This document shows, one piece after another, positions 60,079 to 63,951 of a DNA stretch of 64,000 nucleotides. This stretch comes from Methanofollis fontis (GTDB lineage: Archaea; Halobacteriota; Methanomicrobia; Methanomicrobiales; Methanofollaceae): assembly GCF_004297185.1 (NCBI RefSeq), contig NZ_PGCL01000001.1:1-64000 (forward strand). Direction: 5' to 3'. Numbering within the stretch: the stretch's first letter is position 1; every line of letters begins with the position of its first letter. The notes beneath the pieces were generated by a model. It worked only from the letters and a program-made list of their open reading frames with translations, did no database searches and was not told where the DNA came from. A program made the translations under genes and the position numbers.

Positions 60079-60939
60079 ATGTCAGTACAAATAACCGCAT
60101 CTGAAGGCGGCATCCCGCACGACACGCTCATGGCGGTCGGGCTGATCGGTTCGATCGTCTGCCTGTACCTGACCTACCTCAACGGTGCAACGGGTACGGA
60201 CGTCTTTTCGTTCTTCGGCGGGCTTGCTGCTGTTTTCGCCCTCATCTGGGGCACGGACACGATCAAGCACCTCTGCAGCTATGGTATCGGTACCGGCGTT
60301 CCGTCCGCAGGCATGATCGCCTTCGGCACCGGCGTCATCGCCATGCTGCTGGCAACCCAGTTCGATGGCATGTATCTTGCCCCGATCATGGCGGTCGTCA
60401 TCGGCGCCATCGTCGGCTTTGTCGCCGGTTTCCTGGCGAACAATGTCATGAACATGAACATCCCGGTCATGATCCGCTCGCTCACCGAGATGGCCATCAT
60501 CGGCGCCATTGTGATCATGGGCCTGACGGCCGTTATGGCCGGCGGATTCGGCTTCGACGCCCTCTCGGTCACGATGGTTCAGATCCTCGGACCCCTGGAG
60601 GCCACGTCCTATGCATCCTCGCTCCTCGGCGGATGCCTGATTGCAGTCGCCTTCATGCTCGGCGGCATCGCTCTCCAGCACCCGTTCAACGCCTGTCTCG
60701 GCCCCGGCGAGCAGCAGGACAGGACGCTCATGCTCGCAGCCGAGTGCGGCTTCCTCTCCATGATTGTCGTCGCTGCGATCTCGTTCGCCTTCGTCAGCAT
60801 GTTTGCAGCCGTGATCTCCCTGATCGTCGCCATTGCAGGCTGGTATTACACCTATGCAAAGTACATCGAGCTCTCCAGGCGCGATGCATATGCATGGCTG
60901 AATGCAAAGCCGATTCTGGAACCAAAGGGTGAGGCCTGA
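60079..60939 (+). CDS. mtrC: Tetrahydromethanopterin S-methyltransferase subunit C
   Basis: 286 residues, about eight membrane segments. It starts MSVQITASEGGIPHDTLMAV; HPFNACLGPGEQQDRTLMLA is the conserved hydrophilic loop before the last helices. It is the third membrane subunit of the sodium-pumping part. It starts after a 3-base gap, and its stop overlaps the mtrB start by one base. Confidence 0.98.
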   Translation: MSVQITASEGGIPHDTLMAVGLIGSIVCLYLTYLNGATGTDVFSFFGGLAAVFALIWGTDTIKHLCSYGIGTGVPSAGMIAFGTGVIAMLLATQFDGMYLAPIMAVVIGAIVGFVAGFLANNVMNMNIPVMIRSLTEMAIIGAIVIMGLTAVMAGGFGFDALSVTMVQILGPLEATSYASSLLGGCLIAVAFMLGGIALQHPFNACLGPGEQQDRTLMLAAECGFLSMIVVAAISFAFVSMFAAVISLIVAIAGWYYTYAKYIELSRRDAYAWLNAKPILEPKGEA

Positions 60940-61223
60940 TGGGATACGTACAGGTACTTCCCGAATTCGGGCTGGTCGTCGACCCGATGGTCGGCGTCGT
61001 CACCACGGCGGGCGTCTCGTATCAGCCCGTGATCGACCAGGTGGCAGCACTTGAGCTGGTCGCCGACGACCTTGTCGGCATGCTCTCGGGCGAGGGTGCA
61101 TTCCAGTCCTCATATCCGGGCAGGGAAAAATCACTGGTCTTTGCCGGCGGCGTTACGGCGCTCTGGTATGGTATGGCTGTAGGACTGCTCATTGCGGGGA
61201 TCATTGTCTTCGCGCTGATGTGA
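60939..61223 (+). CDS. mtrB: Tetrahydromethanopterin S-methyltransferase subunit B
   Basis: 94 residues, one C-terminal membrane helix (LWYGMAVGLLIAGIIVFALM). The N-terminal part, VQVLPEFGLVVDPMVGVVTT, is typical of MtrB. It belongs to the central helix bundle with MtrA, F and G. One-base overlap with mtrC; mtrA follows after 9 bases. Confidence 0.97.
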   Translation: MGYVQVLPEFGLVVDPMVGVVTTAGVSYQPVIDQVAALELVADDLVGMLSGEGAFQSSYPGREKSLVFAGGVTALWYGMAVGLLIAGIIVFALM

Positions 61224-61232
61224 GGTGAAAAA

Positions 61233-61755
61233 ATGGCAGACAAAACATCACCGGCGAGCGGATGGCCCCTGATCAAGGGCGACTTCCACTCGGGCGACGC
61301 AAACTCCTGTGTCGCGGTTGTCACCATGGGCTCCCACCTCGATGAGCAGGCCATCTGTGACGCAGGCGCCGCACTCTGCGGTTCATGCAAGACCGAGAAC
61401 CTCGGCCTTGAGAAGGTCATCGCAAACGTCATCTCAAACCCGAACATCAGGTTTGTCATCACCTGCGGTACCGAAGTCAAGGGGCACCTTTCCGGGCAGA
61501 CCCTCATCGCACTCCACGCAAATGGCGTCGAGGGCGGTAAGGTCGTCGGATCCAAGGGCGCTATCCCCTTCATCGAGAACCTCGACGACTCAGCGATCAA
61601 GCGCTTCCAGGCGCAGGTCGAACTCGTCGATATCATGGAGGCAGAGGACCTCGGGGCGATCAAGGCGAAGATCAACGAACTCGCCGGGAAGGACCCGGGA
61701 GCATTCGGCGAACCGCCCATGGTCATCGAGGTCAAGGAAGCCGAGGGAGGCGCTG
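61233..61755 (+). repeat. Direct repeat of the mtrA corrinoid-domain sequence (second copy 62177-62699)
   Basis: 523 bases repeat at an offset of 944. I count seven differences, all silent third-position changes (for example AAA/AAG, GCG/GCA, GTT/GTC, GAA/GAG, GGG/GGA, AAT/AAC, GAG/GAA). The match ends abruptly at GGAGGCGCTG, where the two genes diverge. Confidence 0.97.
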
Positions 61756-61955
61756 AAGAGGTCTCCGGCGAAGTCGTTGAGATGAACGGCGACCTTGCGC
61801 TCATCCATTCCCGGTTCAAGATCATTGAGAAGATGGTAACCGACATCGGCTACCACGACCGCCTGGCGGCGGGCGTGTATTCAGGCAAGGTTGAAGGCCT
61901 GATGATCGGCCTGATTGTGTCATTTATCATCCTCGGTTTCCTGCTGGTGGGGTGA
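61233..61955 (+). CDS. mtrA: Tetrahydromethanopterin S-methyltransferase subunit A (corrinoid subunit)
   Basis: 240 residues. The corrinoid domain (1-172) contains His85 ([11 protein letters not shown]), the equivalent of the lower cobalt ligand in characterised MtrA. A linker (175-215) leads to one C-terminal membrane helix ([19 protein letters not shown]). It accepts the methyl group from MtrH and passes it to coenzyme M, with sodium movement. GAGGTGA precedes the ATG. The first 523 bases are repeated in the fusion gene at 62177. Confidence 0.98.
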
Positions 61956-61962
61956 AGTGAAC

Positions 61963-62166
61963 ATGGCAGAAGAAGAGAAGAAGACATCTGGAGCCATCAG
62001 GATGGCCGCCATCGACAACATCATGGCAGACATCAAATACAAGGCCCAGATCATGGCCAGGACCAACAAACTCGAGTCCGGCATCATGGACTCAGGCATT
62101 CCGGGTTTTGTGGCAGGCGCTGCCATCGCCCTGATCCTCGTCGTGGTGCCGGTCATGCTGATGTGA
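61963..62166 (+). CDS. mtrF: Tetrahydromethanopterin S-methyltransferase subunit F
   Basis: 67 residues, the usual MtrF size. A hydrophilic N-terminus ([20 protein letters not shown]) precedes one C-terminal membrane helix ([20 protein letters not shown]). It is part of the central stalk bundle. ATG 61963, preceded by GGTGAAGTGA, is preferred over in-frame codons inside mtrA. Its position after mtrA matches the canonical order; the gene expected next would be a stand-alone mtrG. Confidence 0.95.
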
Positions 62167-62176
62167 GGTAGAAAAC

Positions 62177-62908
62177 ATGGCAGACAAGACATCACCGGCG
62201 AGCGGATGGCCCCTGATCAAGGGCGACTTCCACTCGGGCGACGCAAACTCCTGTGTCGCAGTCGTCACCATGGGCTCCCACCTCGATGAGCAGGCCATCT
62301 GTGACGCAGGCGCCGCACTCTGCGGTTCATGCAAGACCGAGAACCTCGGCCTTGAGAAGGTCATCGCAAACGTCATCTCAAACCCGAACATCAGGTTTGT
62401 CATCACCTGCGGTACCGAGGTCAAGGGGCACCTTTCCGGACAGACCCTCATCGCACTCCACGCAAACGGCGTCGAGGGCGGTAAGGTCGTCGGATCCAAG
62501 GGCGCTATCCCCTTCATCGAGAACCTCGACGACTCAGCGATCAAGCGCTTCCAGGCGCAGGTCGAACTCGTCGATATCATGGAGGCAGAAGACCTCGGGG
62601 CGATCAAGGCGAAGATCAACGAACTCGCCGGGAAGGACCCGGGAGCATTCGGCGAACCGCCCATGGTCATCGAGGTCAAGGAAGCCGAGGGAGGCGCTGC
62701 CGGCGCGGCAGTTGCCGGTGCAAACCCCCAGTTCCTTGAGATCGAGAAGAGGCTCGACGAGATCGAGACGAAGATTGAGTTCGTGAACGCCGAGGTGGCC
62801 CAGCGCGTCGGTCGCAAGATCGGCAGGGACATCGGTATACTCTACGGACTGGTTGCAGGACTGACGGTCTTTATGATCCTGGTCTTCCTGCTCCCGAAAC
62901 TGATGTAA
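62177..62908 (+). CDS. MtrA corrinoid domain fused to MtrG
   Basis: 243 residues. Residues 1-174 are identical to mtrA of this operon (corrinoid domain with His85). Then comes a short Ala/Gly linker ([10 protein letters not shown]), and residues about 185-243 ([20 protein letters not shown], followed by a Gly/Arg-rich segment and [20 protein letters not shown]) are an MtrG with its membrane helix. MtrA's own linker and helix are absent. It occupies exactly the mtrG place between mtrF and mtrH, with SD GAGGT before the ATG. If made, the complex would carry a second tethered corrinoid domain. MtrG identity is from family knowledge; the fusion is directly visible. Confidence 0.93.
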
Positions 62909-62922
62909 GGAGGATAAGCAGT

Positions 62923-63951
62923 ATGTTCAAATTTGAGAAGGAACAGGCCGTATTCGACTTCAACGGCATTAAGATCGGTGGCCAGCCGGGAGAGTACCCC
63001 CGCGTCCTCGGCGCATCCATCTTCTACAACAAGCACGAAACCGTGCTCGACGACCACACAGGAAAGATCGACAAGGCAAAGGCAGAGGCCCTCTGGAACC
63101 GCTGCCAGGAGCTCTACGACCAGACCGGCAACCCGTACTTCTGCCAGATCATCGCTGAGTACGGCGAGGCCTTCGAGAGCTACTTCGACTGGTTCTGCTC
63201 GATCGACGACAAGACTCCGTTCCTGATGGACTCCTCCGCCCCGGAGGCGCTCATCCACGCCTGCGAGTATGTCACCGAGGTCGGCATCGCCGACCGTGCG
63301 ATCTACAACTCGATCAACGGCTCCATCCTGCCCGAGAGCATCGAGGCCCTGAAGAAGTCCGACGTCAACTCGGCGATTGTGCTCGCCTTCAACCCCGGCG
63401 ACCCGACGGTTGCCGGCCGTGAGAAGGTGCTCGCCGAGGGCGGTGTGGCCGGTCAGGCGCAGTCCATGATCGGCATCGCCGAGGATTGCGGCATCACCCG
63501 TCCGATCCTGGACACCGCGGCCACCCCGCTCGGCATGGGATCCGGCGGTTCGTTCCGCGAGATCCTGGCCTGCAAGGCGATCCACGGTCTGCCGACCGGC
63601 GGCGCCTACCACAACATGACCGTCTCCTGGACCTGGCTGAAGCGCTGGCGCAAGTCCGTCCTGGCCTCCCAGTACGAGGGCAAGGACGTCCTGCTCGAGC
63701 AGATGGCACACCACCACTTCGGCGGCATGGAGGGCATCAGGCAGACCGCATGGGCTTCGCCTGATATCGGCTGCAACATCATGGCCATGACCCTCGGCGC
63801 CGACCTGATCATGTTCGGTCCGATCGAGAACTGCGAGGGTATCGCCACGGCTGCGGCATTCTCCGACATCGTGCTTGCCGAGGCATTCCGTGAACTCGGC
63901 GGCGACCTCGGCGAGGGTGTCGACAAGCACCCCCTCCTGATGCTCGTCTAA
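62923..63951 (+). CDS. mtrH: Tetrahydromethanopterin S-methyltransferase subunit H
   Basis: 342 residues, soluble. It is a TIM-barrel methyltransferase related to B12-dependent methionine synthase methyltransferase domains. It begins MFKFEKEQAVFDFNGIKIGG; MDSSAPEALIHACEYVTE and PLGMGSGGSFREILACKAIH are typical. It takes the methyl group from methyl-tetrahydromethanopterin to the corrinoid of MtrA. AAGGAGGATAAG precedes the ATG, and the gene follows the fusion after 14 bases. Complete; the operon ends here. Confidence 0.98.
   Translation: MFKFEKEQAVFDFNGIKIGGQPGEYPRVLGASIFYNKHETVLDDHTGKIDKAKAEALWNRCQELYDQTGNPYFCQIIAEYGEAFESYFDWFCSIDDKTPFLMDSSAPEALIHACEYVTEVGIADRAIYNSINGSILPESIEALKKSDVNSAIVLAFNPGDPTVAGREKVLAEGGVAGQAQSMIGIAEDCGITRPILDTAATPLGMGSGGSFREILACKAIHGLPTGGAYHNMTVSWTWLKRWRKSVLASQYEGKDVLLEQMAHHHFGGMEGIRQTAWASPDIGCNIMAMTLGADLIMFGPIENCEGIATAAAFSDIVLAEAFRELGGDLGEGVDKHPLLMLV

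Follow-up and report, generated by a model that had tools for sequence, protein, structure and literature searches.

Mtr carries out the Na+-pumping step of methanogenesis. In the structures of the complex available from other methanogens, MtrA, MtrB, MtrF and MtrG form a stalk whose N-termini are cytoplasmic, the central three-helix membrane bundle is made by MtrG, and, as seen by cryo-EM, the corrinoid domain of MtrA is mobile on a disordered linker (PMC10998594, PMC12774963). In some methanogens, a second MtrA domain has been described as a fusion to another subunit. Wang et al. 2015 (PMC4632066) reported an MtrA-MtrG fusion, named mtrA-2b, in eight of the eight Methanomicrobiales that they surveyed, with the normal gene, mtrA-1, retained, as well as an independent MtrA-MtrF fusion, mtrA-2a, in the Methanococcales and in Methanocella arvoryzae. 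Their trees and GENECONV analysis show a gene conversion of long standing that homogenises the MtrA domains; the same paper cites Sarmiento et al. 2013 in support of the idea that neither copy is dispensable. A survey published in 2018 (PMC6053082) again counted mtrA among the genes with long-lasting concerted evolution. In our literature searches, these two evolutionary papers were the only ones found to treat the fusion, and the searches returned neither biochemistry of the MtrA-MtrG protein nor a published structure or biochemistry of any Mtr from the Methanomicrobiales.

The fusion gene of Methanofollis fontis and its operon

The window, i.e. the whole stretch of 64,000 nucleotides analysed here, comes from Methanofollis fontis and contains an MtrA-MtrG fusion gene situated after mtrF and before mtrH, with the normal mtrA-1 upstream. 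Although the initial annotation knew of no described example of such a gene, it is the mtrA-2b already known since 2015, an ordinary member of that family that adds one more species to it. The relevant features, all on the forward strand, are as follows.

60939..61223, forward strand: mtrB (Pfam match)
61233..61955, forward strand: mtrA-1, encoding a normal MtrA that has a C-terminal anchor of its own; partner of the fusion in gene conversion
61963..62166, forward strand: mtrF (open reading frame and profile matches)
62177..62908, forward strand: mtrA-2b, the MtrA-MtrG fusion gene, 243 residues (PF04208 and PF04210 matches)
62177..62698, forward strand: corrinoid-binding MtrA domain of the fusion, residues 1-174, with the cobalt-ligand His85
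62684..62725, forward strand: linker of the fusion, about residues 170-183, predicted to be disordered (pLDDT <50 at 170-183)
62726..62905, forward strand: MtrG part of the fusion, a single predicted continuous helix (residues 184-242) that includes the membrane span
62923..63951, forward strand: mtrH (NCBIfam match)

Both halves of the fusion are matched above the curated Pfam cut-offs, MtrA (PF04208) at residues 4-173 (2.3e-83) and MtrG (PF04210) at residues 184-237 (3e-24), and the NCBIfam assignment agrees. They are joined by some 14 linker residues, and the MtrG part begins without about the first nine positions of the MtrG profile; in alignments with MtrG chains of known structure, its match starts near residue 12 (9QTQ) or 17 (8Q3V). 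In the AlphaFold2 model (mean pLDDT 78), the MtrA domain is confident, the linker disordered and the remainder one long helix. A GAGGT motif stands 5' of the ATG; a scan for promoter and terminator consensus sequences gave no match above chance. The initial annotation was right in its reading of the gene: an intact frame with its own Shine-Dalgarno motif and its expected neighbours, encoding a complete MtrA domain with His85, a linker and MtrG with its membrane helix, downstream of a normal mtrA.

Distribution of the fusion

Within the class to which the window belongs, a profile search matched MtrG in 179 of 232 genomes. On unbroken contigs, the MtrG-matching frame is typically at least 240 residues long and lacks about the first nine profile positions, and most genomes that are at least 95 % complete carry two MtrA matches. 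Outside the order, by comparison, the MtrG matches listed for a wider sample of the phylum are short frames of about 73-143 residues from stop to stop, which start at profile position 1-4. The best named relatives of the window locus are Methanofollis MAGs at 88-89 % identity, and the host falls within the Methanomicrobiales. A survey of mtr operons in that order, as the initial annotation had suggested, was made on operons drawn from fetched and named loci, and all 56 distinct complete operons contain mtrA-1, mtrF, the fusion and mtrH, in that sequence. Across the order, the linker of the fusion measures 12-15 residues, versus 19-22 in mtrA-1. In the operon recorded for Methanocella sp. PtaU1.Bin125 (locus L127, 2995-5116), mtrA is followed by an MtrA-MtrF fusion, two consecutive mtrG-like genes and then mtrH.

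An assembly chimera, in which a plain mtrG had been wrongly joined to a copy of mtrA, was named in the initial annotation as one finding that would overturn the fusion; another was a known separate mtrG at some other locus, with the fusion copy silent. That the near-identical MtrA repeat troubles assemblers is plain from the short MtrG frames that were fetched (20 cases; further ones lie near contig starts), as 16 end at a contig edge in or beside the repeat, three more are interrupted by N gaps and one is frameshifted close to the end of its contig; with all 20 so explained, there is no real stand-alone mtrG counter-example among them. Many metagenome assemblies (loci L033-L052) are broken or N-gapped within the repeated MtrA domain, so automatic surveys under-count the fusion. 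Against a chimera, however, stands the occurrence of the same fusion gene in closed genomes of many genera, with fixed differences between the two copies within each genome. The genome of M. fontis itself (2.36 Mb, 98.5 % complete) holds two MtrA domains and one MtrG in total, and a profile search for a further mtrG besides the fusion found none. Moreover, the 763,690-bp contig continues beyond the window, so that no assembly edge falls at the fusion. Since a nearly complete genome yielded no other mtrG and the contig runs straight through this one, and since closed or single-contig genomes and the order-wide occurrence concur, the chimera was rejected, and we regard its chance as negligible.

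Concerted evolution of the two MtrA domains

In M. fontis, the fusion and mtrA-1 differ at only seven of their first 522 bases (98.6 % DNA identity between the MtrA domains), and every difference is at a third codon position; all seven are synonymous, so that residues 1-174 of the two proteins are identical. Immediately after the junction, identity drops abruptly to background. The synonymous divergence (dS) between the two copies is 0.06, versus 0.42-0.58 to other Methanofollis species, and by both dS and tree the MtrA domain of the fusion is nearer to the mtrA-1 of its own genome than to its orthologues. Taken by themselves, this identity and this low dS are what a recent, lineage-specific duplication and fusion would produce, as opposed to an old one under conversion. 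Yet the fusion is found order-wide, in an unchanged position and with the same kind of junction, and its MtrG tails are orthologous, whereas the MtrA domains pair by genome. A recent origin would need dozens of identical, independent fusions, and we consider it extremely improbable.

Conversion was assessed here through identity and tree topology. Over the 56 operons, the two MtrA domains have a mean DNA identity of 95.2 % within genomes, versus about 75 % between genomes. In the DNA tree, the two domains of one genome are sisters in 49 of 56 cases, with the remaining seven pairs lying inside clades of four sequences. A topology that groups every fusion copy in one clade is rejected (p-AU 0.002). 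At the protein level, His85 (present in 56/56 fusion copies) and Glu55 are invariant in both copies across the 56 operons, and the segment G109-N116 is conserved except for P112 (P or A) and I114 (I or L). Together with a dN/dS between copies that is low in most genomes, the invariance of His85 and Glu55 indicates constraint on both of them.

To judge from the divergence of their two copies (79-83 % DNA identity, dS about 0.7-1.1), conversion has lapsed in Methanospirillum, Methanomicrobium and a small number of further lineages. The loci concerned are L053, L062, L101, L102, L106, L107 and L108, and the cobalt-ligand site is kept in both of their copies. These lineages bear upon the idea that the fused MtrA domain has ceased to cycle methyl groups and acts instead as a cap with a structural or regulatory role, staying like mtrA-1 only as a by-product of conversion, an idea with which the shorter linker of the fusion would agree. 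Even at such divergence, though, dN/dS is about 0.07-0.13, and both copies retain His85, Glu55 and the greater part of the GAIPF-EN segment. This conservation in diverged pairs is the best evidence from sequence that the fused domain may be a working corrinoid carrier, and the cap appears unlikely to us.

Proposed origin and role of the fusion

We think it probable that mtrA-2b arose from an old mtrA duplicate fused to mtrG, has been kept alike to mtrA-1 by conversion, and most likely serves as a second mobile corrinoid carrier in the stalk. The duplicate would have shed its own anchor and joined mtrG in frame, and the resulting fusion would have displaced the stand-alone mtrG in the order's ancestor; gene conversion, whether from mtrA-1 or towards it, has since kept the corrinoid domains nearly identical. 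Incorporation of the fusion into Mtr is likely, because no other MtrG was found and this subunit forms the core of the stalk; the fusion protein would there take the place of MtrG, with the fused MtrA domain hanging into the cytoplasm on its flexible linker. From that position, it might move as a second carrier between MtrH and MtrCDE, and each protomer would have two corrinoid carriers, giving up to six per trimer. That MtrG should tether a second corrinoid domain is plausible by analogy, being in line with the cryo-EM topology of Mtr from other methanogens. As the linker is shorter than that of mtrA-1, the reach of the two carriers may differ. The structure and distribution of the gene, its concerted evolution with mtrA-1 and the conservation of its cobalt ligand are established by the data above; incorporation, corrinoid loading, six carriers per trimer and an effect on Na+ coupling are what we infer from them.

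Cleavage of the fusion, or use of an internal start, would instead yield a free MtrG and a soluble MtrA domain, and anchorless, soluble homologues of MtrA are indeed known in some methanogens (PMC4915002). However, there is no conserved internal start near the junction, as Met163 is replaced in several relatives and occurs in mtrA-1 as well, and the linker is held within its narrow range of lengths; separate products therefore seem very improbable, and the intact, stalk-borne fusion is the reading that we retain. One might go further and suppose that, where conversion has lapsed (Methanospirillum, Methanomicrobium and some Methanocorpusculaceae-like genomes), the carriers have specialised, and that the Mtr of the order is a two-carrier machine with a coupling scheme unlike that of the structurally characterised three-carrier enzymes, a conjecture to which we give little credence at present.

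Comparison with known systems

In domain order, position between mtrF and mtrH, retention of mtrA-1 and within-genome concerted evolution of the MtrA domains, the gene in the window and mtrA-2b (PMC4632066) are alike throughout, and no difference between them was found. The mtrA-2a gene of the same study resembles it in placing a duplicate MtrA domain on a single-helix stalk subunit and in being kept alike by conversion, but its partner is MtrF rather than MtrG and its origin was judged to be independent. The Mtr complexes of Methanothermobacter marburgensis and Methanosarcina mazei (PDB 8Q3V, 9QTQ) share the same subunits and operon with the window but, unlike it, have a single MtrA, a stand-alone MtrG and three corrinoid domains per trimer. 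The Mtr structures found in our search are of methanogens whose protomers each hold one corrinoid domain, and an order with two is a natural test of carrier shuttling and its coupling to Na+ transport.
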